Shown: piece after piece, positions 4,794 through 26,499 of the stretch
How positions within the stretch are numbered: position 1 is the stretch's first letter
Layout of the letters: each line of letters starts with the position of its first letter
DNA from: Candidatus Methanoperedens sp.
GTDB lineage: Archaea; Halobacteriota; Methanosarcinia; Methanosarcinales; Methanoperedenaceae
DNA: 35,969 nt
Assembly (NCBI GenBank): GCA_027460585.1
Contig: JAPZAP010000029.1
Location: 1 to 35,969 of the forward strand
Direction of reading: 5' to 3'
Notes under the pieces: model-generated
Told to the model about the DNA's origin: nothing
The model's input: only the letters and a program-made list of their open reading frames with translations
Databases searched by the model: none
Made by a program: the position numbers and the translations under genes

Positions 4794-4803
4794 TTTATAT
4801 ATA
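4794..4803 (+). promoter_or_regulatory. probable TATA box of the KaiC/GTPase/Roadblock operon
   Basis: TTTATATATA lies 37 bases before the ATG at 4840. Normal archaeal spacing would place the transcript start near 4825-4830, leaving a very short leader with no clear ribosome binding site, so the first gene may be translated from a nearly leaderless mRNA. Confidence 0.5.
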
Positions 4804-4839: not shown

Positions 4840-5544
4840 ATGAGCGACTATACAACGGGTATTAAGGAATTGGATGATGTTATCGGGGGCATTCGAAAAG
4901 GGTCGAATATTATGCTTATCGGTCCTCCAATGAGTGGAAAAGAAATCATCCTGAACCACATAATGTATCATGGCGCTGCAAATAATGAAAATGCCATAAT
5001 TACAGTTACAACACGCGAATCAGCAACTCATATACTGGAATGGTTCCAGGCGAACAATTTAATTCTTCCTATGTCAAGGATCGGAATAGTAGATTGCGTT
5101 TCGAAAACGCTGGGAGGAACTGCTGTCGAGAATGAGAATATTAAGATCGCCAGTAGTCCTGTTGACCTGACGGGAATTGGAGTTAAAATAAGCCAATTTT
5201 TAGAAGAATTCTTCATAAAAAAGAATAACCAGAAAATCCAGCTCCATATAAATTCACTTTCAACAATATTGATGTATTCGAACATCCAGACCGTTTTCAG
5301 GTTTCTTCATGTTTTTACCGGCCGAATAAAAGCAGCAGGCGCTCTTGGAATTTATGTGATCGAGAGCGGTATGCATGACGAACAGGCAATTGCAACGTTA
5401 AAACAACTATTTGATGGATTGATCGAGATCAAATCTGAAGATGATAAAAATCTCATAAGAATAGTAGGTGTTTCCCCAAAACCAACCCCTTGGTTTGAAT
5501 ATGAAATTGAGGGTAATAATTTAAAGATATCGAGGGGAAATTAG
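4840..5544 (+). CDS. KaiC-like RecA-fold ATPase with atypical nucleotide site
   Basis: This 234-residue protein is a single RecA-fold domain of the KaiC/GvpD-like group. It opens with the family signature TGIKELDDVIGGIRKGSNIMLIG. The P-loop is GPPMSGKE (28-35), which ends in Glu rather than Ser/Thr, and the Walker B region reads LHINSLSTI, with Asn138 where the acidic residue normally sits. Nucleotide hydrolysis is therefore doubtful. It is the first gene of a tight + strand operon; the next gene starts one base after its stop. In archaea such domains are often regulatory or assembly ATPases rather than clock proteins. A role as partner or sensor for the downstream GTPase is inferred from position only. 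Confidence 0.8.
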   Translation: MSDYTTGIKELDDVIGGIRKGSNIMLIGPPMSGKEIILNHIMYHGAANNENAIITVTTRESATHILEWFQANNLILPMSRIGIVDCVSKTLGGTAVENENIKIASSPVDLTGIGVKISQFLEEFFIKKNNQKIQLHINSLSTILMYSNIQTVFRFLHVFTGRIKAAGALGIYVIESGMHDEQAIATLKQLFDGLIEIKSEDDKNLIRIVGVSPKPTPWFEYEIEGNNLKISRGN

Positions 5545-5545
5545 A

Positions 5546-6715
5546 ATGGTCGAGACAGGCATTCCAAAACTTGATGAATTTCTTGGCGGGGGAATACCAA
5601 AAGGGAAGAGTCTTGTTTATTATAGCCAACCGGGAGTTGAAGGTGAGATATTCGGACTGCAAACTGTCTATGGCACGCTAAAAAAGGGCGGGACATGCGT
5701 TTTCGTGGTGTCTAGCACTATGCCTGAGATCATAAAGGATCAAATCAAGGAATTCGGTTGGGATATGAATTCGTATAAAGATAAGTTATTTTTTGTAGAT
5801 TCTTATAATCCCTTGATAGGCGCACATTCAGATGAAAAATATGTTGTTTCAAATCCTGATAATATCGAATATTTTAATAAGACAATAACAGATATTATCA
5901 AAAAATTACCCCCCAGCACAATAGTTTTTGGATCTCTTTCAACTATAATGGATCTATGCGGTGAAAAAGAAACAATAGAGGCTGTCAGGAATTGGAATAA
6001 ATTGGCCATGGTGTATGATCATGTTCTGGTCTATAATTTCACAGCGTGGCCTTATTCGGAGCAAACTTTAGATCTGATAAAGGGCAGCCTGTTCAATTCT
6101 GTTATTACTATCGGAGGAATAGCAGAACGGGTTATTTTCGGGCAGTATTTCGGAATACTTAAATCAGATTGGGCTGAAGTATCCAGAAAATCCATGCTTT
6201 TCAGGGTTTTAAGACCGGGTGGAATAAGGATTTTTATACCCAAAATCCTTGTCACAGGGCCATTTGATGCCGGAAAGAGCACTTTTGTCCATGCCCTTTC
6301 CACACGTGCGATCTCAGTGGACCGGCTAGGCACAACTATTGCGATGGACCATGGCCATGTGGATTATAAAGGTTTTAGTGCGGATATTTTCGGGACTCCG
6401 GGACAGGAACGGTTTGATCCGATCATAAAATTACTGAGCGGTGAGTCCATGGGGGTCTTTCTTATCGTGGATTCAACAAATCCTTCGGATTTTGTTCGTG
6501 CAAAATATATGCTTGATATCACAAAATCATATGGGCTGCCGTATGTTATCATTGCGAATAAGCAGGATCTGCCTGGAGCGTTGAAGCCGGAAGAAATAAG
6601 GGAACAATTCCATTTGCCAGAAGATGTCCCTGTTGTTCCAGTAGTTGCGAAAGATAAAAAAGGTGTTTTTGAAGCATTTGAAGTCTTAATAGACAGGATC
6701 ACAGGAGGAGTTTAA
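5546..6715 (+). CDS. fusion of degenerate KaiC-like domain and small Ras-like GTPase
   Basis: The 389-residue product has two domains. Residues 1-225 are KaiC-like (TGIPKLDEFLGGGIPKGKSLV), but the P-loop position is YSQPGVEGE with no GK[S/T], and the Walker B position is FGSLSTI with Gly129 for Asp. Residues 233-389 are a complete small GTPase: G1 GPFDAGKST (238-246), G2 Thr263/264, G3 DIFGTPGQERF (280-290), G4 NKQD (338-341), G5 around VVAKDK (366-371). The GTPGQERF form of G3 resembles the bacterial/archaeal GTPases found beside Roadblock proteins (COG2229, Streptomyces conservon CvnD) rather than Ras itself. The Roadblock gene follows with a TAATG overlap and a strong AGGAGG. The fusion is real: there is no internal stop and linker residues are continuous. 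Confidence 0.87.
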   Translation: MVETGIPKLDEFLGGGIPKGKSLVYYSQPGVEGEIFGLQTVYGTLKKGGTCVFVVSSTMPEIIKDQIKEFGWDMNSYKDKLFFVDSYNPLIGAHSDEKYVVSNPDNIEYFNKTITDIIKKLPPSTIVFGSLSTIMDLCGEKETIEAVRNWNKLAMVYDHVLVYNFTAWPYSEQTLDLIKGSLFNSVITIGGIAERVIFGQYFGILKSDWAEVSRKSMLFRVLRPGGIRIFIPKILVTGPFDAGKSTFVHALSTRAISVDRLGTTIAMDHGHVDYKGFSADIFGTPGQERFDPIIKLLSGESMGVFLIVDSTNPSDFVRAKYMLDITKSYGLPYVIIANKQDLPGALKPEEIREQFHLPEDVPVVPVVAKDKKGVFEAFEVLIDRITGGV

Positions 6716-7083
6716 TGTCGGATACGTTAGATATGGTAGATAAACTCCTAGCCGATCTGAAAAATGTCGGCGGGGTTATGGCCTGTGCCGCTGCAAGCCG
6801 TGATGGTTTGTTGATCCGGTCTATTATGCAGAACGAAAAATATGTTGAATCCCTGGCGGCAATGTCCGCAACAATGCTTGGGGCTGCGGAGACAGCGACC
6901 ACTCATGTTGATATGGGCATTCCTACAAGGGTAATTGTTGAATCTGATAATGGAAAACTGATCGTTGTAGGAGCAGGACCTAACGCACTGCTGATACTTC
7001 TTGCAAACAAGAACAGTGGGCTGGGTTTAATACTACTTGAACTTGACAAATCCGCACAGAAACTAAAGGAGATATTAACATGA
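6715..7083 (+). CDS. Roadblock/LC7 domain protein
   Basis: A 122-residue single-domain protein matching the Roadblock/LC7 (MglB-like) fold: an N-terminal helix, then GGVMACAAASRDGLLIRS, a central helix with AAMSATMLGAAETATTHVD, and strands PTRVIVESDNGKLIVVGAG and NALLILLANKNSGLGLILLEL. Family members dimerise and regulate small GTPases; MglB is the GAP of MglA in Myxococcus and CvnB accompanies a GTPase in actinobacterial conservons. Here it directly follows a GTPase domain, its ATG overlapping the GTPase stop by one base with AGGAGG at 6703-6708. A regulatory or scaffold role for that GTPase is a well-founded inference. Its stop overlaps the start of the YhbY gene in ATGA. Confidence 0.9.
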   Translation: MSDTLDMVDKLLADLKNVGGVMACAAASRDGLLIRSIMQNEKYVESLAAMSATMLGAAETATTHVDMGIPTRVIVESDNGKLIVVGAGPNALLILLANKNSGLGLILLELDKSAQKLKEILT

Positions 7084-7334
7084 ACAAACATGAAACAAAA
7101 GCAGAAGCCACTTCTATTGAACCAACGCTCCATGTGGGTAAATCAGGTATAGATGTTGTAGTGGAAGAATTAAAAACCCAGCTTAAGAACCAGAAATTGA
7201 TAAAAGTTAAATTCCTCAGATCTGCTTTTGCCGATACAGGAAAAAAAGAACTGGCCGAAAAACTGGCTGACCTTTCCAATTCGCAACTCATTGAAGTCAG
7301 GGGAAATACGGCGGTTTACAGCCGAAAAAGGTAA
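7080..7334 (+). CDS. YhbY family RNA-binding protein (CRM domain)
   Basis: This 84-residue protein matches the single CRM domain family YhbY: HVGKSGIDVVVEELKTQLKN, QKLIKVKFLRSA, then the C-terminal LIEVRGNTAVYSRK that resembles the family's GNxxVLYR ending. YhbY-type proteins bind pre-ribosomal RNA in bacteria and are common next to translation genes in archaea. The start overlaps the Roadblock stop (ATGA), so expression is coupled to the upstream signalling genes; S19e follows 102 bases later. The classic GKxG loop is present (GKSG, 19-22). The identification is confident, the exact RNA target unknown. Confidence 0.88.
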   Translation: MNKHETKAEATSIEPTLHVGKSGIDVVVEELKTQLKNQKLIKVKFLRSAFADTGKKELAEKLADLSNSQLIEVRGNTAVYSRKR

Positions 7335-16659: not shown

Positions 16660-19600
16660 CTAATCCTTTTTTTCTTTTTCGGATTTATGCATTATATCAA
16701 TTGCCTTATCATAAGCCTTTATAGCCTCATTATATTTCCCTTCTTCATAAAGGTCAAAACCTCTATTATTCCAGGCATCGGCATCCTCCGGCATTACTTC
16801 CATAGGTTTTTCATGCACCGTTACATATTTTCCAGGTACTGTTTTAGATTTTTTGTTTTTCCTTAATATATAAACGACAAAACCAATGATTATGAAACCA
16901 ATTATAATATATACCCATATAAAGGATTTCGATTCTATTATCTTTGGCAGGGGCATATTTATTATTGCCGGGATTTTGCCTGCTTTAACGGTGGCGGCTG
17001 GATAATGAGAACCGGCAACAATTGCAAAAGGTAAGAATGCGTTGGTTTTTGCTACATAATATACGAATTGTTCATCAATGCTCTTTGGCGCGGTTTCCAG
17101 TGTAACCCAACTGCTTCCATCCCATCCAAGAAGACTTACACTTCCCTCATCAAGGTTATTCTCTGCAAGCCAGCTTCTATCGACTTTGAATCCTATGAAC
17201 GCATCTATAATGCCCTCTCCGCTTTCAAGTTGCTTCGCGCCCACCCAGATGTTATAATATTTATAAACAATCCCCAAAGGCGGTGTTACTCCTGCTATTT
17301 TTGATACATCTTTGAGAAGTTCCACTCTTACGCTTGTAATTCCAAAATTATCTGACGGGGTTATTAACACTTCAGAAATTGCAAGGTCTGGCGAAGTAAC
17401 TATAAAAGATGCCGGAACATTTGCCGCTAAATTTTCGTCCATAGTTTCAAAAGACTCTATGTTACTAAATGGTTCCGGGGAAATTACGCCTGCTCCGCCT
17501 CCACCTACTCCTGAAATGGGCAGAAATGGCAGAGGGGATGTGGTGGAAGTTGGGGTTGGCGTGGGAGGCGCAATTTTTGTTCCTATAAGTGCGAAGGTCG
17601 ATAAGCCCTTCATCCTGAAAACAAACGTATAGCTATTGTTCACGGAATCGTAGTTATATTTCTCAGGTGTCTGGATTTGTCCAACGGACCCGTTCGAAAA
17701 AATCTCAACCAAAATCACATTATTAAGTTGGGATGCAGCCATGTTATTATACCACTCCCCACTCACAGTCATGAATACCGGTACTTCGAGGATGTCCTGT
17801 GCAGTTGCGCCATCAAGTTGAGCCGATGTTACAAATGCAATGTGTTTTCCAACATCAGTAATACCAAGAGAAGACTGGAGAGCTGCAAGGATTACATCCT
17901 GCCCAACTAGTCCTGCATCCGTGCCTCCCCTTGCCATCAAATCATCTGCAATATCCGGATGAAGTGACATCGTAAATATCATGCCGCTTAACTTTGACGA
18001 AGCATTTATTCCAACATCTACATCGCTTGATACTTTTCCAATGCCTGTGAAATTAGAGTTGATTTGTGAATTGTTCAACATTATGCTATCTATTGTAAAT
18101 ATAACATGATCTCCCGATACAATCGGATTACTGATAACGAGTTCAATTGTAGAAGTTCCGATGTTATAACCGATGCGTGTACCGTTCACAATACCAATAG
18201 CTGTTGCCGTAGACATGCTAATCTCTCCAACGCCACCATTTATTTCGATACTGCAATTATCTACAACAAAAGTCGGTGAATGTGTTATAAAAAGAGACTT
18301 ATCACCAAATATATCATCGAGAATGGATTTAGTCTTAAACGCTATACCCAATGAAGCTGATACATTATTTGCCAGTGCATTAACGTATGAAGTGCCTGGG
18401 GATGTAGAAGAAACCAATACTACAGTAGCTATACCCTTTAGTGTCTGCGCAGACAGTGTTTGACTATCCGAAACCTTACCGATGTCAGATTCTGTTAGAT
18501 AAAGCAAGCCATCTGAAGTCGTAAATAATACATTTGTACCATCAATCACAGCGGTTCCGTTGACATCTGTAAGATATGCAACGATTTTTGCTTTATCCTG
18601 GCCATCTGCATCCAACGCTGCCGGATTGGAGACTATAGTAATATTGAACGTATTGCCAGGTGCCGTAACCGGTACAGAATAATTAACAGATCGTGTAGTT
18701 GTTGCCGTATTGTGGTTTGTGCTGTTATCTGTAGCAATTACTGTAATTGTATTCCGGCCTGGGTTCAATGAAGTTGATGAATTGAACAAGTTACCATTCA
18801 CTGTTGCTGGAACACCATTAACAGTCACAGAGCCTATCCCAGTGTTATCTGAAACAGTGCCATACACCTCTATGGTATTGTCAACTGCCTTAATTTCGAA
18901 CACGTCGCCCGGCAATCGTGTATCAACGCCAGGGTATTGTACACTGAGAATCGGCGGCTGGGTATCAGGTGCTATTATTCGGGTAACCATTAAAGTTGTG
19001 GTATTTGTATTTAGATTACTGCTTGAGTCTATGGCTTGAACTATAATAATGTTTGATCCGGGATCGAGGTCAATCGATGTTCCAAATCTGCCATCGGATG
19101 TTATAGTGACTGGTACACCGTTCACCGTAGCCGAACGAATCCCGCTATCATCAATTGCTCTCCCGCTCACAACAATAGAACTGGTATTAAGAACCGTGAC
19201 ATTTACAGGCTGATTCACCGCCAATATTGGTGGTGTAGTATCCTGGACAAGCGGGGGTGCGTAGGTAACTGTTCTTGTCACGGTTTCAGTATTCACATTC
19301 GGACTGGCATCCGTAGCAAAAATAGTAATTGTATTTCTGCCATTTACCAGGATTACTGTTGTGCTGAAGCTGCCTGTTGGATCTACTATTACAGCATCCC
19401 CGTTAATCATTACCGAATGTATCCCACTGCTATCGAAAGCCGTGCCACTCACTGTAGTAGAGCTGGTGGTAAAGATCTGGCCGTTAGTTGGCGTATTCAC
19501 GACCATTGTTGGTGGTGTGGTGTCTGGTACAACTGGAGGCGAGTAGGTGATTGTTCTTGTTATTGTTGCTGTATTATCGGCATTATCTGTCGCTACCACT

Positions 19601-22600
19601 GTGATCGTATTTGTCCCCGGAACAAGGAATACGCTCGTACCGAAATGACCTGGACTTAACGGGATTTTCGCACCATTCACGGAAACCGTTTTTACCCCAC
19701 TATCATCCGTTGCAGTTCCGCTCACGGCAATAGAACTTGTAGTAAATATCTGGCCATTTGTTGGCTGATTCACAACCAATTTTGGCGGTACTGTATCAGG
19801 TAGAGACGGGGGCACATAGTTAACTGTTCTTGTTACATTCGCGCTGTTGTGGTTGCTGCTGCTATCTATAGCTTCCACGGTGATTATGTTTGTGCCTGGA
19901 TTTAATGTAAGGGTAGATGTAAACGAATCCCCTGTAATTACTGCGGGCGCGCCGTTCACGGTTACTGAGAGTATGCCGCTGGCATCCGTGGCAAAGCCGT
20001 TCACTGTAATCGAATTAGTAATGAAGACCCGGGCATCTATCGGCTGCATTACGATGAGCACCGGGGGTGTTGTATCCGGCACACCAGGAGGCGTAAACGT
20101 AACTGTTCTTGTCACTATTGCAGTATTCGCATTCGGACTGGCATCCGTAGCAGTGAGCGTGATCGTGTTGCTGCCATTTACCAGGATTATTGTTGTACTG
20201 AAGCTACCTGACGGACTTATTGTAACTGGAATACCATTTACTGTTATGTTAGCAATTCCGGATGGATCTGTCGCAGTACCACTTACGGTAATTGAACTTG
20301 TAATGAAGGACTGGTTGTTTATCGGCTGGGTGACTATCAACAGCGGCGGTGTCGTATCCAGGATTGTGGTTACAGTCACCGTAGCTGTTCCGCTGACACT
20401 ACCATTTGTTGCAGTTATTGTAGTCACGCCTGCTGCTAATGTCGTGAATACACCCGTGATGGTAATGGTACCCACGGTCGAATTGCTGCTGCTCCAGCTC
20501 ACAGTTGCATTTATCGGGTTACCGAACTGATCTTTGGGAGATGCTGTGAAAGTTTGCATATTACCCACAACGACCGACGCAGTCGATGGCGAGACCGTTA
20601 TACTGGTTAACAAGGGTGGTAGTGCAGTCACGGTCACTGTAGCTGTTCCGCTGACACTAGCATTTGTTGCGGTTATTGTAGTCGTGCCGGCAGCTATTGC
20701 CGTGAACAGCCCTGCGCTTGTGATAGTCCCCACGCCTGTATTGCTGCTGTTCCACGTCACAATTGCACTAATCGGGTTATCGAACTGATCTTTAGGAGAT
20801 GCTGTGAAGGTTTGCGTATTACCCACAACAACCGAAGCAGTCGCTGGCGAGACTGTTATACTGGTTAACACTGGTGGTAGTGCGGACACGGTCACTGTAG
20901 CTGTTCCGCTGACACCACCACTTGTTGCGGTTATTGTAGTCGTGCCAGCAGCTATTGCCGTGAATACACCGGTGCTGGTAATGGTACCCACGCCTGTATT
21001 GCTGCTGCTCCAGGTCACAGTTGCATTTATCGGGTTGCCGAACTGATCCCTGGGCGATGCTGTGAAGGTTTGTGTATTACCCACAACGACTGATGCAGAC
21101 GCTGGCGAGACTGTTATACTGGTTAACACAGGTGGTAGTGCGGACACGGTCACTGTAGCTGTTCCGCTGATGCTGCCATTTGTTGCGGTTATTGTCGTCG
21201 TGCCTACGGCTATTGCCGTGAACAGCCCTGCGTTGGTGATAGTTCCCACGCCTGTATTGCTGCTGCTCCAGGTCACAGTTGCATTTATCGGGTTGCCGAA
21301 CTGATCCCTGGGCGATGCTGTGAAGGTTTGCGTATTACCCACAACAACCGATGTAGTCGCTGGCGAGACCGTTATACTGGTTAACACTGGTGGTAATGCG
21401 GTCACGGTCACTGTAGCTGTTCCGCTGACACCACCACTTGTTGCGGTTATTGTAGTCGTGCCTGCAGATATTGCCGTGAATACACCCATGCTGGTGATAG
21501 TTCCCACGCCTGTATTGCTGCTACTCCACGTCACAGTTGCACTAATCGCGTTACCGAACTGATCTCTGGGAGATGCTGTGAAGGTTTGCGTATTACCCAC
21601 AACGACTGATGCAGTCGCTGGCGAGACTATTATACTGGTTAACACAGGTGTTGGTGTGGTCACGGTCACTGTAGCTGTTCCGCTGATGCTGCCATTTGTT
21701 GCGGTTATTGTAGTCGTGCCTGCAGATATTGCAGTGAATACACCGGCGCTGGTGATAGTTCCCACGCCTGTATTGCTGCTGCCCCAGGTCACAGTTGCAC
21801 TAATCGGGTTACCGAACTGATCTTTCGGAGATGCTGTGAAGGTTTGGGTATTACCCACAACAGCCGATGCAGTCGCTGGCGAGACTGTTATACTGGTTAA
21901 CACAGGTGTTGGTGCGGTCACGGTAACCGTGAAATTGGCCGCAGAGATTGAACCATTCCTGTCACTTACAGTGATCTGCCAGGAATGGATGCCTATATCG
22001 CTGCTTGTTGTTGGCAAGAGCAGCGTGCCGTTATTCGTGTAGAATGTTCCGTTGGTGAAATTTCTTGCAAAAACCGGAGTGTCGCCATCCAGATCACTTG
22101 AAGTCGGGTATATCGATAATGGGTCCCCGGCTGTTAACGTGTAACTTCCCGATACATTCCCTATTGCCACAGGATTGTTGGCGACCTGAGTATCATAGGA
22201 TACGGCTGTAGTGTTCAAAGTTCCTGCGCCTGAACTGTTGAACGCATAAACCGAGATGTTGCTCCAGCCGTGCGGAGCCAGACCTGAATTATTGTAATAG
22301 GTGTTTGTGCCGTTGTGCCAGGTGCCGTTGACGCTTACGTTATACGAATTTGTTACGTTCCCGCTCCCGGCCTGCCATGTATGGTTCATGAAGAAATTGC
22401 CAGTGTTGCTGATTATATTTGCAGGTATCGGAGGTATGTAGGCCGGGAATGTGGTCACCGCAGTGCTGGTATTCACGCTTGCAAACTTCGAATTGTCGCC
22501 CTGCGAGATTGCGGTTATGTTCACAAGGAATTTGCCCGGGGAGGTATTGGTTACATTGAGAGAGAAGAATAAGCTCTGGTCCGGACTGAGAGTAGAAGTG

Positions 22601-25600
22601 GGCGAGGAGATATCGAGAGCCGCTATAGAGGCGGTGTTCGCGTTGGTGACTATCAAGGTGTAGGAATCAGGATCGCTGCCGTTATTGGTAAGAGTGAGCA
22701 TGTAGGTGGCATTCACGCCGACACTGGGGCTCTTTGAAGTAGTATCTATGCTTAAACTAACAGCCCGGACAGCACCAACCGCAGTGCTGGTATTCACACT
22801 GGCGAACTTCGAACTGTCACCTTGCGAGATTGCGGTTACGTTCACAAGGAATTGGCCTGAGGAAGTATTGGTGACGTTGAGCGAGAAGAGCAAACTCGCT
22901 CCCGGTGCCAGAGCCGGTGTTGGCGAGGAAGTGTTCAGCAGAGCAGTAGAGGCACTGTTTGCGTTATCGACGACAAGATTATAGGTATCCGGATCGCTGC
23001 CGGTGTTGGTGAGATTGAGAAGGTAGGTTGCACTGGTTCCGGCAGATGTTGACTGTGCGGATGTATTTACGGTCAGGCTAAATTCCGTTACTGCAAGCAC
23101 TGTGGTTGTAGTATTGGCGTAGGCGGATTTTGTTATATCACTTGATGTGGCTATGACATTGACTGGGAACGTGCCTGATGAGGTATTTGTGACATCAAGG
23201 GCGAATACCAGGCTCTGGCCGGCATTCAGTGCCTGGCTCAATGAGGTGTTCAGGAGAGCAGTAGAGGCACTGTTTGCGTTATCAACGACAAAAGTATAGG
23301 TATCTGCATCAGTGCCGGTGTTGGTGAGGTTGAGAACGTAGGTTGCATTGGTTCCTGCAGAGGTTGCCTGTGCGGATGTATTGACGGTCAGGCTAACTGC
23401 CTTTACTGCGGTCACCGTGGTTGTGGTATTGATGTATGTAAATATGTTTGAGTCATTCACCGAAGTTGCTGTGATATTGACGGGGAACGTGCCTGATGAG
23501 GTATTGGTGACGTCAAGGGCGAAAATCAAGCTCTGGCCGGCATTTAGTGTCTGGCTCAATGCGGTATCCAGGAGAGCAGTCGAGGCACCGTTTGCGTTAT
23601 CAACGACAAGAGTATAGGTATCTGCATCAGTGCCGCTGTTGGTGAGGTTAAGAAGATAGGTTGCATTGGTTCTGGCAGATGTTACCTGTGCAGGTGTATT
23701 TACGCTCAGGCTAACTGCCGTTACTGCAAGCACTGTGGTTGTGGTATTGACGTAGGCAGACTTCGTTATATCACTGGATGTGGCTATGACATTGACAGGG
23801 AAAGTGCCTGATGATTCATTTGTGACGTTAAGTGCGAATATCAGGCTCTGGCCGGCATTCAGTGCCTGGCTCAATGAGATGTTCAGTAGAGCAGTAGAGG
23901 CACTATTTGCGTTATCAACGACAATAGTATAGGCATCTGCGTCAGTGCCGGTGTTGGTGAGGTTGAGAAGGTAGGTGGCATTGGTTCCGGCAGATGTTGC
24001 CTGGGCGGGTGTATTGATGCTCATGCTAACTGCCTTTACTGCGGTCACCGTGGTTATGGTGTTGACGTAAGCAGACTTTGTGTAGTCATTGCCAGAGGTT
24101 GCTGTGACATTAACATGGAATGTTCCTGATGCTGTATTGGTTACATTTAAGGCAAAGAATATGCTCTGCCCTGCATGCAGGGTTACCGTAGAAGTGTGGT
24201 TGAGGGATGCTGTTGATGCACTGTCTGCATTGTCTATCGCAAGTGTGTAGGAATCTGTGCCTGTGCCGTTGTTGGTTAAATTAAGAACGTAGATGGCTTT
24301 AATTCCGGTTGTAGTTGACTGCGTTATTTCAGAGATGTTCAGTAAACTTGTTGCATAGGTTGCAGTTACGTTGGTGGTGGTATTGATGTACCCGAACTTC
24401 GACGAGTCGTTGTCCGATGTGGCGGTTATGTTTATCAGGAATAGCTGGAACCTTGTGTTTGTTAAGGTCGCATTGGTGACGTCGAGTGCGATTATTTTGC
24501 TCTCACCCGGATGCAATATTACCGGAGAAGTGATATTGAGGGATGCAGTAGTTGCACTGTTTACATTGTCTATCGCAAGAGTGTAGGAATCAGTACCTGT
24601 GCCGCGGTTGGTCAGGTTAAGCACGTAGGTTGCGTTCACGCTTGCGTTGGTTGAATTTGTTAATGCTGAGATGCTTGCCAGGCTTGTTCCATAGGTTGCA
24701 GTTACGTTGGTGGTGGTGTTCACGTATGCGAAATTATCAGGGTCACTGGTCGAGGCAGCGGTGACATTAACAAGGAATAGCTGGAACCTGGTGTTTGTTA
24801 AGGTTGCATTGGTTACATTCAGTGAGAATATCCTGCTTTCACCTGCGTTTAATATTACCGGGGAAGAAATGTTGAGGGAAGCTGTGGTTGCACTGCTTGT
24901 ATTGTCTATTGTGAACGTGTAGGTATCTGAGGCACTGCCGCTGTTTGTCAGGTTAAGAACGTAGGTTACGTTTACGCCTGCATTGGTTGACTGCGTTAAT
25001 GCAGAGATGCTAGTCAAACTGGTGCCTCTCGTAGGCGTTACATTAGTTGTGGTATTGATGCACGCAAGCTGCGAAGAGTCGTTGTTCGAGGTTGCGGTTA
25101 CATTTACCCGGAATAAGCCAAAGGAACTAGAAAGCGTTGCATTGGTTACTTTTAAGGCAAAGAATATGCTCTGCCCTGCATGCAAGGTTACCAGAGAAGT
25201 GTGGTTGAGAGAGGCCATTGTTGCACTATCTGCATTGTCTATCGCAAGAGTGTAAGAATCTGTGCCCGTGCCGTTGTTGGTCAGGTTGAGCACGTAGGTT
25301 GAATTAATTCCGGTTGTGGTTGTCTGATCAAGCACGGAGATGTTCAGTAAACTTGTTGCATAGGTTGCAGTTACGTTGGTTGTGGTATTGATGTGTCCAA
25401 ACTTCGAAGAGTCGTTGCCCGATGTGGCGGTTATGTTAACCAGGAAAAGCTGGAACCTGGTGTTTGTTAAGGTTGCATTTGTGACGTTGAGGGCGATTAT
25501 CCTGCTTTCGCCGGAATTCAGGGTTACCGGAGAGGAGAGATTGAAATCTGCCGTGGTTGCACTGCCTGCATTGTTTGCGGTAAGCGTGTAGGAATCAGTG

Positions 25601-26499
25601 CCTGTGCCGCTGTTGGTCAGGTTGAGAACGTAGGTTGCATTAATTCCAGTATTGGTTGACTGCGTTATTGCAGAGATGTTGACCAGGCTTGTGGCGTAGG
25701 TTGCAGTTACGTTGGTCGTGGTGTTGATGTACGCTAGCTCCAAAGAGTCGCTGTTTGAGCTTGCAGTTATGTTTACCAGGAAAAGCTGAAATTTAACGTT
25801 TGTAAGCGTGGCATTTGTAACATTCAGCAAGAATATCCTGCTTTCACCTGCGTTTAATATTACCGTCGAAGAAATGTTAAGGGATGCAGTGGTTGCACTG
25901 CTTGCATTGTCTATTGAGAGCGAGTAGGTATCTGACGCAGTGCCGCTGTTTGTCAGGTTAAGAACGTAGGTAACGTTTACGCCTGCATTGTTTGACTGCG
26001 TTAATGCGGGGATGCCTGTCAGGTTAACGCCGCGGTGAACTTTCAATATCTCGAAGTCGTGCTGCTGGCTCCACCCCGTATAATTGAATGTCACCCATCC
26101 CGAAGTGTCTGATAATACTGCCTGGTTGAAACTTCCATCAACCCAGAAACTATAATTTGTCGATGGTAATTGCATTTGGGCTGACACATTGAGATAGCCC
26201 TCCGTGCCATTCCCGGTGTAATTTACGGCATCGTTAACATTGTCATAAGAAATATTCGACAGCGTTTTGTTGGTGTTTGCCGTGAACCTGATAGCAGTGC
26301 CGTTGATGTAAAACTGGAGTGTGGATGCTGGTGAGTCTGTTGGGCTGTATATCGTAATGTTTGTTGAGGTCTGGGGTGCAAGCACTTTGATGAAGGCGCT
26401 GTTGTCGAGGTAAAAATTGACATCGTTTACAATGCTGACCTGAGCTGAAGCTATACCGATTATCAATGCAACGCTTATCAAATAAATAAATAGTTTCAT
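16660..26499 (-). CDS. giant multidomain surface protein with cytoplasmic TPR tail
   Basis: A 3279-residue protein. Order: signal peptide (1-19, ending ASAQ); unique N-terminal domain (20-157); eleven NEW3/CARDB-like beta domains of about 107-112 residues (158-1350); a fibronectin-like and a cadherin-like domain (1352-1530); six bacterial Ig-like group 2 domains of 86 residues (1531-2046); six glucodextranase-B-like domains beginning DTTPP (2047-2613); an invasin-like Ig domain; a unique region; a Pro/Thr linker; a PGF-pre-PGF-like domain ending FLPFAIVAG; a membrane helix (about 3190-3212); and a single cytoplasmic TPR (3238-3270). N-glycosylation sequons are very dense in the first third. 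It is most likely a filamentous adhesin or S-layer-associated protein. The frame is unbroken. RBS is weak; it may be read through from the tail-fibre-like gene 111 bases upstream. Confidence 0.9.
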   Translation of the reverse strand: MKLFIYLISVALIIGIASAQVSIVNDVNFYLDNSAFIKVLAPQTSTNITIYSPTDSPASTLQFYINGTAIRFTANTNKTLSNISYDNVNDAVNYTGNGTEGYLNVSAQMQLPSTNYSFWVDGSFNQAVLSDTSGWVTFNYTGWSQQHDFEILKVHRGVNLTGIPALTQSNNAGVNVTYVLNLTNSGTASDTYSLSIDNASSATTASLNISSTVILNAGESRIFLLNVTNATLTNVKFQLFLVNITASSNSDSLELAYINTTTNVTATYATSLVNISAITQSTNTGINATYVLNLTNSGTGTDSYTLTANNAGSATTADFNLSSPVTLNSGESRIIALNVTNATLTNTRFQLFLVNITATSGNDSSKFGHINTTTNVTATYATSLLNISVLDQTTTTGINSTYVLNLTNNGTGTDSYTLAIDNADSATMASLNHTSLVTLHAGQSIFFALKVTNATLSSSFGLFRVNVTATSNNDSSQLACINTTTNVTPTRGTSLTSISALTQSTNAGVNVTYVLNLTNSGSASDTYTFTIDNTSSATTASLNISSPVILNAGESRIFSLNVTNATLTNTRFQLFLVNVTAASTSDPDNFAYVNTTTNVTATYGTSLASISALTNSTNASVNATYVLNLTNRGTGTDSYTLAIDNVNSATTASLNITSPVILHPGESKIIALDVTNATLTNTRFQLFLINITATSDNDSSKFGYINTTTNVTATYATSLLNISEITQSTTTGIKAIYVLNLTNNGTGTDSYTLAIDNADSASTASLNHTSTVTLHAGQSIFFALNVTNTASGTFHVNVTATSGNDYTKSAYVNTITTVTAVKAVSMSINTPAQATSAGTNATYLLNLTNTGTDADAYTIVVDNANSASTALLNISLSQALNAGQSLIFALNVTNESSGTFPVNVIATSSDITKSAYVNTTTTVLAVTAVSLSVNTPAQVTSARTNATYLLNLTNSGTDADTYTLVVDNANGASTALLDTALSQTLNAGQSLIFALDVTNTSSGTFPVNITATSVNDSNIFTYINTTTTVTAVKAVSLTVNTSAQATSAGTNATYVLNLTNTGTDADTYTFVVDNANSASTALLNTSLSQALNAGQSLVFALDVTNTSSGTFPVNVIATSSDITKSAYANTTTTVLAVTEFSLTVNTSAQSTSAGTSATYLLNLTNTGSDPDTYNLVVDNANSASTALLNTSSPTPALAPGASLLFSLNVTNTSSGQFLVNVTAISQGDSSKFASVNTSTAVGAVRAVSLSIDTTSKSPSVGVNATYMLTLTNNGSDPDSYTLIVTNANTASIAALDISSPTSTLSPDQSLFFSLNVTNTSPGKFLVNITAISQGDNSKFASVNTSTAVTTFPAYIPPIPANIISNTGNFFMNHTWQAGSGNVTNSYNVSVNGTWHNGTNTYYNNSGLAPHGWSNISVYAFNSSGAGTLNTTAVSYDTQVANNPVAIGNVSGSYTLTAGDPLSIYPTSSDLDGDTPVFARNFTNGTFYTNNGTLLLPTTSSDIGIHSWQITVSDRNGSISAANFTVTVTAPTPVLTSITVSPATASAVVGNTQTFTASPKDQFGNPISATVTWGSSNTGVGTITSAGVFTAISAGTTTITATNGSISGTATVTVTTPTPVLTSIIVSPATASVVVGNTQTFTASPRDQFGNAISATVTWSSSNTGVGTITSMGVFTAISAGTTTITATSGGVSGTATVTVTALPPVLTSITVSPATTSVVVGNTQTFTASPRDQFGNPINATVTWSSSNTGVGTITNAGLFTAIAVGTTTITATNGSISGTATVTVSALPPVLTSITVSPASASVVVGNTQTFTASPRDQFGNPINATVTWSSSNTGVGTITSTGVFTAIAAGTTTITATSGGVSGTATVTVSALPPVLTSITVSPATASVVVGNTQTFTASPKDQFDNPISAIVTWNSSNTGVGTITSAGLFTAIAAGTTTITATNASVSGTATVTVTALPPLLTSITVSPSTASVVVGNMQTFTASPKDQFGNPINATVSWSSSNSTVGTITITGVFTTLAAGVTTITATNGSVSGTATVTVTTILDTTPPLLIVTQPINNQSFITSSITVSGTATDPSGIANITVNGIPVTISPSGSFSTTIILVNGSNTITLTATDASPNANTAIVTRTVTFTPPGVPDTTPPVLIVMQPIDARVFITNSITVNGFATDASGILSVTVNGAPAVITGDSFTSTLTLNPGTNIITVEAIDSSSNHNSANVTRTVNYVPPSLPDTVPPKLVVNQPTNGQIFTTSSIAVSGTATDDSGVKTVSVNGAKIPLSPGHFGTSVFLVPGTNTITVVATDNADNTATITRTITYSPPVVPDTTPPTMVVNTPTNGQIFTTSSTTVSGTAFDSSGIHSVMINGDAVIVDPTGSFSTTVILVNGRNTITIFATDASPNVNTETVTRTVTYAPPLVQDTTPPILAVNQPVNVTVLNTSSIVVSGRAIDDSGIRSATVNGVPVTITSDGRFGTSIDLDPGSNIIIVQAIDSSSNLNTNTTTLMVTRIIAPDTQPPILSVQYPGVDTRLPGDVFEIKAVDNTIEVYGTVSDNTGIGSVTVNGVPATVNGNLFNSSTSLNPGRNTITVIATDNSTNHNTATTTRSVNYSVPVTAPGNTFNITIVSNPAALDADGQDKAKIVAYLTDVNGTAVIDGTNVLFTTSDGLLYLTESDIGKVSDSQTLSAQTLKGIATVVLVSSTSPGTSYVNALANNVSASLGIAFKTKSILDDIFGDKSLFITHSPTFVVDNCSIEINGGVGEISMSTATAIGIVNGTRIGYNIGTSTIELVISNPIVSGDHVIFTIDSIMLNNSQINSNFTGIGKVSSDVDVGINASSKLSGMIFTMSLHPDIADDLMARGGTDAGLVGQDVILAALQSSLGITDVGKHIAFVTSAQLDGATAQDILEVPVFMTVSGEWYNNMAASQLNNVILVEIFSNGSVGQIQTPEKYNYDSVNNSYTFVFRMKGLSTFALIGTKIAPPTPTPTSTTSPLPFLPISGVGGGGAGVISPEPFSNIESFETMDENLAANVPASFIVTSPDLAISEVLITPSDNFGITSVRVELLKDVSKIAGVTPPLGIVYKYYNIWVGAKQLESGEGIIDAFIGFKVDRSWLAENNLDEGSVSLLGWDGSSWVTLETAPKSIDEQFVYYVAKTNAFLPFAIVAGSHYPAATVKAGKIPAIINMPLPKIIESKSFIWVYIIIGFIIIGFVVYILRKNKKSKTVPGKYVTVHEKPMEVMPEDADAWNNRGFDLYEEGKYNEAIKAYDKAIDIMHKSEKEKKD
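18660..20362 (-). repeat. six tandem glucodextranase-B-like domains
   Basis: Units of about 91-100 residues each start with DTTPP or a close variant, followed by a GxxxxxSxIxVSGTATDxSGI strand pair, VTVNGxPV, and GxNTITVxATDxSxNxN. This is the bacterial surface stalk type. Units differ more from each other than the 258-base repeats do, so this block is older. Confidence 0.82.
20363..21912 (-). repeat. six 258-bp tandem repeats encoding Ig-like (Big_2) domains
   Basis: Six units of exactly 258 bases encode LTSITVSPATASVVVGNTQT, FTASPKDQFGNPISATVTW, SSSNTGVGTIT, GxFTAIAAGTTTITATNGS and SGTATVTVT. DNA identity between units is visibly very high, with the last copy (nearest 20363) most diverged. 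The fixed length with no indels indicates expansion by recombination. Confidence 0.9.
22450..26030 (-). repeat. eleven tandem NEW3/CARDB-like domain repeats
   Basis: Each unit follows the pattern TNATYVLNLTNxGTxxDxYTL, DNAxSAxTAxLN, LNAGxSxIFALNVTN, and FxVNxTATS. The first five units have an insert (ATLTNTRFQLFLVN) and run about 112 residues; the sixth to eleventh lack it and run about 107. Units 1-5 and 7-10 are closest to each other, which suggests expansion in two blocks. Confidence 0.85.

Follow-up and report, generated by a model that had tools for sequence, protein, structure and literature searches.

GTPase-Roadblock pairs run bacterial cell polarity and are similar to components of Rag and Rab regulation in eukaryotes. 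For the archaeal forms of these pairs, neither an output nor a scaffold is known to us. The survey of Wuichet and Sogaard-Andersen describes MglA groups 2-5 with GTPGQ and a Thr in G2 and MglB partners with an Asp-Gly pair; GTPases longer than 240 aa were omitted, and archaeal group 4 was without conserved neighbours (PMC4316618). In the actinobacterial conservons (CvnA-D) a single operon encodes a sensor together with a Roadblock protein and an MglA-type GTPase, and inactivated KaiC (iKaiC) domains joined to signalling domains are a concept cited in PMC5847659. We analysed a stretch of 35,969 nucleotides (the window; contig JAPZAP010000029.1, assembly GCA_027460585.1) from the methane-oxidising archaeon Candidatus Methanoperedens sp. 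(ANME-2d) which holds a GTPase-Roadblock pair of this kind together with KaiC-like parts.

Three genes on the forward strand make up the cassette at 4840-7083. K1 (4840..5544; 234 aa) encodes a free KaiC-like protein of the DUF7504/KaiC superfamily, KG (5546..6715; 389 aa) an inactive KaiC-like domain fused to a small GTPase, and RB (6715..7083; 122 aa) a Roadblock/LC7 protein. K1 and KG are separated by a one-base gap and KG and RB overlap by one base. The initial annotation had described three genes spaced by at most one base that encode a KaiC-like protein, a KaiC-like/GTPase fusion and a Roadblock protein, and the open reading frames and Pfam matches agree with this. A gene for a YhbY/CRM-domain protein, identified by ORF and Pfam match, follows on the same strand (7080..7334) and overlaps RB by 4 bases (7080-7083). 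The sequence TTTATATATA on the forward strand (4794..4803), approximately 40 bases 5' of K1, reads as a possible archaeal TATA box. A scan for sigma-70 promoters and terminators gave matches at chance level only, sigma-70 not being the archaeal promoter type. The dN/dS ratio against Methanoperedens relatives was 0.04-0.10 for each of K1, KG and RB, and strong purifying selection is indicated on both KG domains. The KG fusion was also present in named Methanoperedens contigs with an identity of up to 91%, and its presence in many genomes rules out an assembly artefact or a one-genome oddity. Elsewhere in the window, a 3279-aa ORF on the reverse strand (16660-26499) carries Big_2 and Glucodextranase-B Ig-like repeats with a C-terminal TPR and probably encodes a giant surface protein; ORFs opposite to it recur every 258 bases around 20534-21820.

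The C-terminal half of KG (aa 226-389; 6221..6712, +) was assigned as a small GTPase from Pfam (Arf/Ras match, aa 233-385), motifs and profiles. G1 (GPFDAGKST, 6257-6283), G2 (TT, 6332-6337), G3 (DIFGTPGQERF, 6383-6415) and G4 (NKQD, 6557-6568) are all present on the forward strand. Across 72 aligned KG proteins drawn from many families, G2 had TT in 72/72 (a Thr in place of the group-1 Arg beside the G2 Thr), G3 had GTPGQ in 66/72, the window included, and G4 had NKxD in 71/72. By these motifs the GTPase residues of KG (GxxxxGK[ST], TT, GTPGQ, NKxD) are intact. The GTPGQ motif and the G2 Thr in place of Arg are shared with MglA groups 2-5, as is an adjacent Roadblock gene, and G4 differs from the altered group-2 form of the conservons. 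PDB profile scores for the domain were slightly higher for Arf and Rab than for MglA. At 389 aa, KG exceeds the 240-aa single-domain size of the surveyed MglA groups 2-5, and its architecture thus lies outside that survey, which omitted larger GTPases.

RB carries a Robl_LC7 domain (48.3 bits against a Pfam cut-off of 23), and its profile matches solved Roadblock proteins including MglB and CvnB5 (3leq) of the conservons. The Asp-Gly pair known from MglB lies at 6802-6807 (+), and in the RB alignment the Asp was kept in 29 of 31 proteins and the Gly in all 31. The genome of the window encodes six Roadblock proteins, so the pairing of RB with KG rests on adjacency. At another locus (L172:476-4802) a stand-alone 165-aa GTPase sits between two Roadblock genes in an MglA/MglB-like operon without KaiC, near a third Roadblock gene and a gene for a 662-aa protein without a Pfam match.

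The N-terminal half of KG (aa 1-225; 5546..6220, +, assigned by alignment to 2dr3) is where the locus departs from MglA-MglB, in which the GTPase neither stands behind a dead KaiC domain nor has a second KaiC-like gene beside it. Pfam KaiC matched aa 2-138 (1e-19). AlphaFold2 modelled KG as two confident domains (mean pLDDT 88, pTM 0.83; 31-sequence alignment), and a Foldseek search against PDB matched the N-terminal half to PH0284 (2dr3), a KaiC-family ATPase of the RecA superfamily, with a TM of 0.86 of the target, and also returned KaiC. The P-loop remnant YSQPGVEGEIF (5621-5653, +) has no lysine, the Walker A lysine was missing from all 72 aligned KG proteins, and the Walker B Asp position was Gly in most of them. 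The KaiC half of KG therefore has a KaiC-like fold and is not a working ATPase, and since it is well conserved and under purifying selection it is a maintained pseudo-ATPase. Solo copies of the pseudo-KaiC domain without a GTPase, 57-65% identical to that of KG, occur in Methanoperedenaceae (L088, L089, L090, L092, L093), where the dead KaiC domain of KG type evidently also serves alone. In a further case (L087:5045-6697) a KG-type pseudo-KaiC domain is joined to another kind of C-terminal region, which matches a carbon-nitrogen hydrolase weakly.

K1 matched DUF7504 and KaiC in Pfam, and its AlphaFold2 model has a RecA/KaiC fold with a less tight Foldseek match than KG (TM up to 0.75). The K1 protein of the window has neither a complete Walker A (GK[ST]) nor the Walker B Asp; its P-loop reads GPPMSGKE (4921-4944, +) and the Asp is replaced by Asn. 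On sequence, K1 of the window lineage is without the usual Mg ligands and retains the P-loop lysine alone. Degenerate P-loops were also found in four of four K1 proteins examined from Methanomicrobiales-like genomes. Walker A GK[ST] and the Walker B Asp are intact in K1', the K1 of a second, paralogous ANME-2 cassette (KG2), and both Walker motifs are intact in three complete K1 proteins of family f10 (L138, L139, L141). Since K1 of the window keeps only the P-loop lysine and the KaiC domain of KG is dead, a KaiC ring driven by ATP is improbable in this lineage, and a scaffold of purely structural function would be more likely.

KG was found in 73 of the 238 genomes of its class and in full length in 38 of the 394 genomes of its phylum, and is thus not confined to the window. 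K1 was adjacent to KG for 83 of 85 distinct KG proteins, and RB was adjacent, near or fused at about 74 of 84 KG loci; one KG locus ends at a contig edge. The order with K1 upstream and RB downstream of KG was seen for 66 of the 85, with four reversed, two RB-K1-KG and one fused to RB among the other orders. Against the sequence-based objections named in the initial annotation, the fusion is not limited to one genome and relatives keep the three genes together; gene order kept across families places the K1-KG-RB arrangement far beyond chance. A trio kept together across many archaeal families looks like a real signalling device. In one Methanocella-like genome (L145), the sole case, KaiC, GTPase and Roadblock form a single 546-aa chain, which is Rosetta-stone evidence of GTPase and Roadblock working together; its G3 reads GTPGH and not GTPGQ, so this chain may be catalytically altered. 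No RB lies beside KG in six Methanomicrobiales-like loci (L146-L149, L168, L169), which keep K1-KG, so a neighbouring RB is not a requirement at every locus. RB is likewise missing beside three second KG copies in Methanoperedens (L031, L034, L084) with altered G3 motifs (GTPDQ, GTSGQ). These three compare with three altered G3 motifs among about 74 loci with RB, small numbers that lie in the direction expected if RB and the GTPase function together.

Colinear K1-KG-RB sets were found in the fetched loci of Methanoperedenaceae, ANME-2a/b/c and ANME-3, with accession-identified examples in ANME-2a HMMV-459A3 (L035), ANME-2c E20 (L043) and ANME-3 HMMV2 (L032) (PMC9012536). Beyond these, further families of the Halobacteriota carry the set (f10, f15, f16, f18, f22, f29, f33, f36, f38). 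Of these, f15 is presumably Methanocellaceae and f10 Archaeoglobaceae. An ANME-only distribution is ruled out by these Methanocella-like, Archaeoglobi-like and other families. A viral origin was rejected: no relatives were found among viral contigs, and the viral structure matches were general RecA, helicase and Rab folds. A defence-system reading was likewise rejected, the only match being a weak one to mad8 around the P-loop. Within the Methanosarcinaceae (f5, about 112 genomes) KG was present in six genomes only, five of seven in genus g27 (ANME-3) and one of two in g18. MtaB (methanol methyltransferase) was missing from all six and present in 15 of 18 KG-negative members tested; the KG-positive, MtaB-negative members fall mostly in one clade, so this contrast reflects one or two evolutionary events and is not an independent statistical test. 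In a quick tree, which had three stand-alone archaeal GTPases as its only outside members and no reference MglA/Rup set, the ANME-3/g18 KG sequences formed their own clade among Methanosarcinales (99% SH-aLRT). The tree fits vertical inheritance with loss in the methanogenic Methanosarcinaceae. A recent transfer from ANME-2 to ANME-3 is unsupported since the ANME-3/g18 clade is separate and not nested in ANME-2, while an older transfer to ANME-3 is compatible with it. A correlation with multiheme cytochromes via PF13435 was uninformative, as methanogens match too.

The common core is K1-KG, nearly always with RB, and the possible sensors vary. The second ANME-2 cassette has the order RB2-KG2-K1' (L082, L083), and PAS-domain proteins lie beside KG2 in L081 and L083, the two loci whose scanned neighbours had matches; at L080 the one neighbour of KG2 that was scanned gave no Pfam match. 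Adjacent PAS proteins are a likeness to the conservons which the window cassette does not share, and no histidine-kinase-like CvnA and no CvnC were recognised beside it among ORFs and Pfam matches. The KaiC-like parts are in turn absent from the conservons. In f10 loci the neighbours are TatC and a V4R protein of approximately 200 aa directly after RB, and V4R proteins also lie beside RB in f33 loci. FeoB and a DtxR-FeoA protein precede K1-KG in f17-like loci, and AMMECR1 lies near the cassettes in f15, f18 and f22 loci. The scanned Methanomicrobiales-like locus (L146) likewise has feoB and a DtxR-FeoA gene before K1-KG, and a link of K1-KG to iron is possible in these genomes.

We interpret K1-KG-RB as an MglA/MglB-type switch on a KaiC-like scaffold, fed by sensors (probability approximately 0.6). 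The MglA-type GTPase domain of KG would cycle between GTP and GDP, and a Roadblock dimer would bind this domain and tune its cycling; GAP action, as of MglB on MglA, is the likeliest mode. For the pseudo-KaiC domain of KG we propose a docking role: it would pair with K1, a contact suggested by gene pairing, to give a heteromeric RecA-type scaffold. This scaffold would place the GTPase next to RB and the sensors (PAS at the paralogous cassette, ligand-binding V4R proteins in Archaeoglobi-like genomes). Where K1 has an intact P-loop, as in the KG2 cassettes and the Archaeoglobi-like genomes, ATP binding could be a second input, one that was probably lost from K1 in the window lineage. What the sequences show directly is the domain make-up, the joint conservation, the natural GTPase-Roadblock fusion, the lost ATPase residues of KG and its intact GTPase residues; assembly of the complex, GAP activity, sensor coupling and output are steps that we infer. 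The initial annotation had proposed a KaiC-like scaffold or oligomer that positions a GTPase tuned by Roadblock; the conserved set, the L145 fusion and the MglA/MglB motifs favour its GTPase and Roadblock part, while the fused KaiC domain has turned out to be a pseudo-ATPase.

The neighbouring genes would also allow a role in translation or ribosome assembly; KG would then be a GTPase with a link to the ribosome, expressed together with YhbY, S19e and PDCD5. Beyond the overlap of yhbY with RB, S19e and PDCD5 follow downstream in Methanoperedenaceae and several ANME-2a/b loci, and in ANME-3 and at several ANME-2c loci RB likewise has a YhbY gene after it. This link is confined to Methanosarcinales, with TatC, V4R, FeoB, DtxR-FeoA and AMMECR1 found elsewhere, so YhbY is probably an operon neighbour and not part of the module; the GTPase motifs of KG are moreover MglA-type and not those of a ribosome-assembly GTPase family, and we consider a translation role highly unlikely. 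Another reading is regulation of a surface or motility machine, such as a type IV pilus or archaellum, by analogy with the KaiC-like ArlH, which acts in this way, and with Roadblock proteins, which may do so in archaea. Archaeal T4P loci are reported to include KaiC-family ATPases and Roadblock proteins (arCOG02603) (PMC4858521), motility polarity in Myxococcus is under MglA control (PMC9481161), and the K1 and KG models both match FlaH (4yds). Such a role is nonetheless unlikely, as the scanned part of the neighbours of the inspected cassettes contained no recognisable pilus or archaellum gene.

A Ragulator/TRAPP-like assembly, in which Roadblock and V4R (Bet3-like) would form a GEF-type platform and not a GAP, has in its favour that V4R proteins accompany the cassette at f10 and f33 loci. 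In eukaryotes, Roadblock and TRAPPC3/V4R proteins are members of complexes that regulate GTPases, and they have archaeal homologues (PMC10933270). The combination of a small GTPase and Roadblock, with relatives of V4R/Bet3 in a subset of cassettes, is a likeness to Ragulator-Rag and TRAPP; unlike these, the cassettes have no recognised longin proteins and carry KaiC-type parts instead. We regard this assembly as improbable, since V4R is missing from most cassettes and the KG G3 is the GTPGQ of MglA, where eukaryotic members of the Ras superfamily have DxxGQ. It is also conceivable, though distinctly unlikely, that K1-KG-RB forms a separate class of archaeal GTPase switches built around a heteromeric pseudo-KaiC scaffold and governs some process peculiar to methane oxidation, for example extracellular electron transfer or contact with a partner. 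On this reading, anaerobic methane oxidisers would have kept it for that reason, and the related methylotrophic methanogens would have lost it. The set is also present in Methanocella-like methanogens and Archaeoglobi-like genomes and is hence not specific to methane oxidation.

The switch on a KaiC-like scaffold, our preferred reading, shares with archaeal KaiC-like and iKaiC proteins a KaiC/RecA fold and an inactivated copy joined to a signalling domain, and differs from iKaiC proteins as described in the literature consulted in that the fused partner is a complete small GTPase. We found no description of a KaiC-GTPase fusion or of the K1-KG-RB set in the literature searched; the archaeal KaiC survey of Makarova (2017) lies outside that search and may list the fusion, and KaiC, GTPase and Roadblock are absent from the main text of Chadwick et al. 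(2022). K1-KG-RB is provisionally a new form of GTPase-Roadblock switch. A GTPase tied covalently to a pseudo-KaiC domain, almost always with a second KaiC-like protein at its side, would unite in one complex two protein families that are prominent in the signalling of archaea. Since Methanocella-like and Archaeoglobi-like genomes carry the set, cultivated archaea may be open to its study, and its presence in ANME, against its absence from those methylotrophic Methanosarcinaceae that were sampled, offers a lead on the biology of methane oxidisers.
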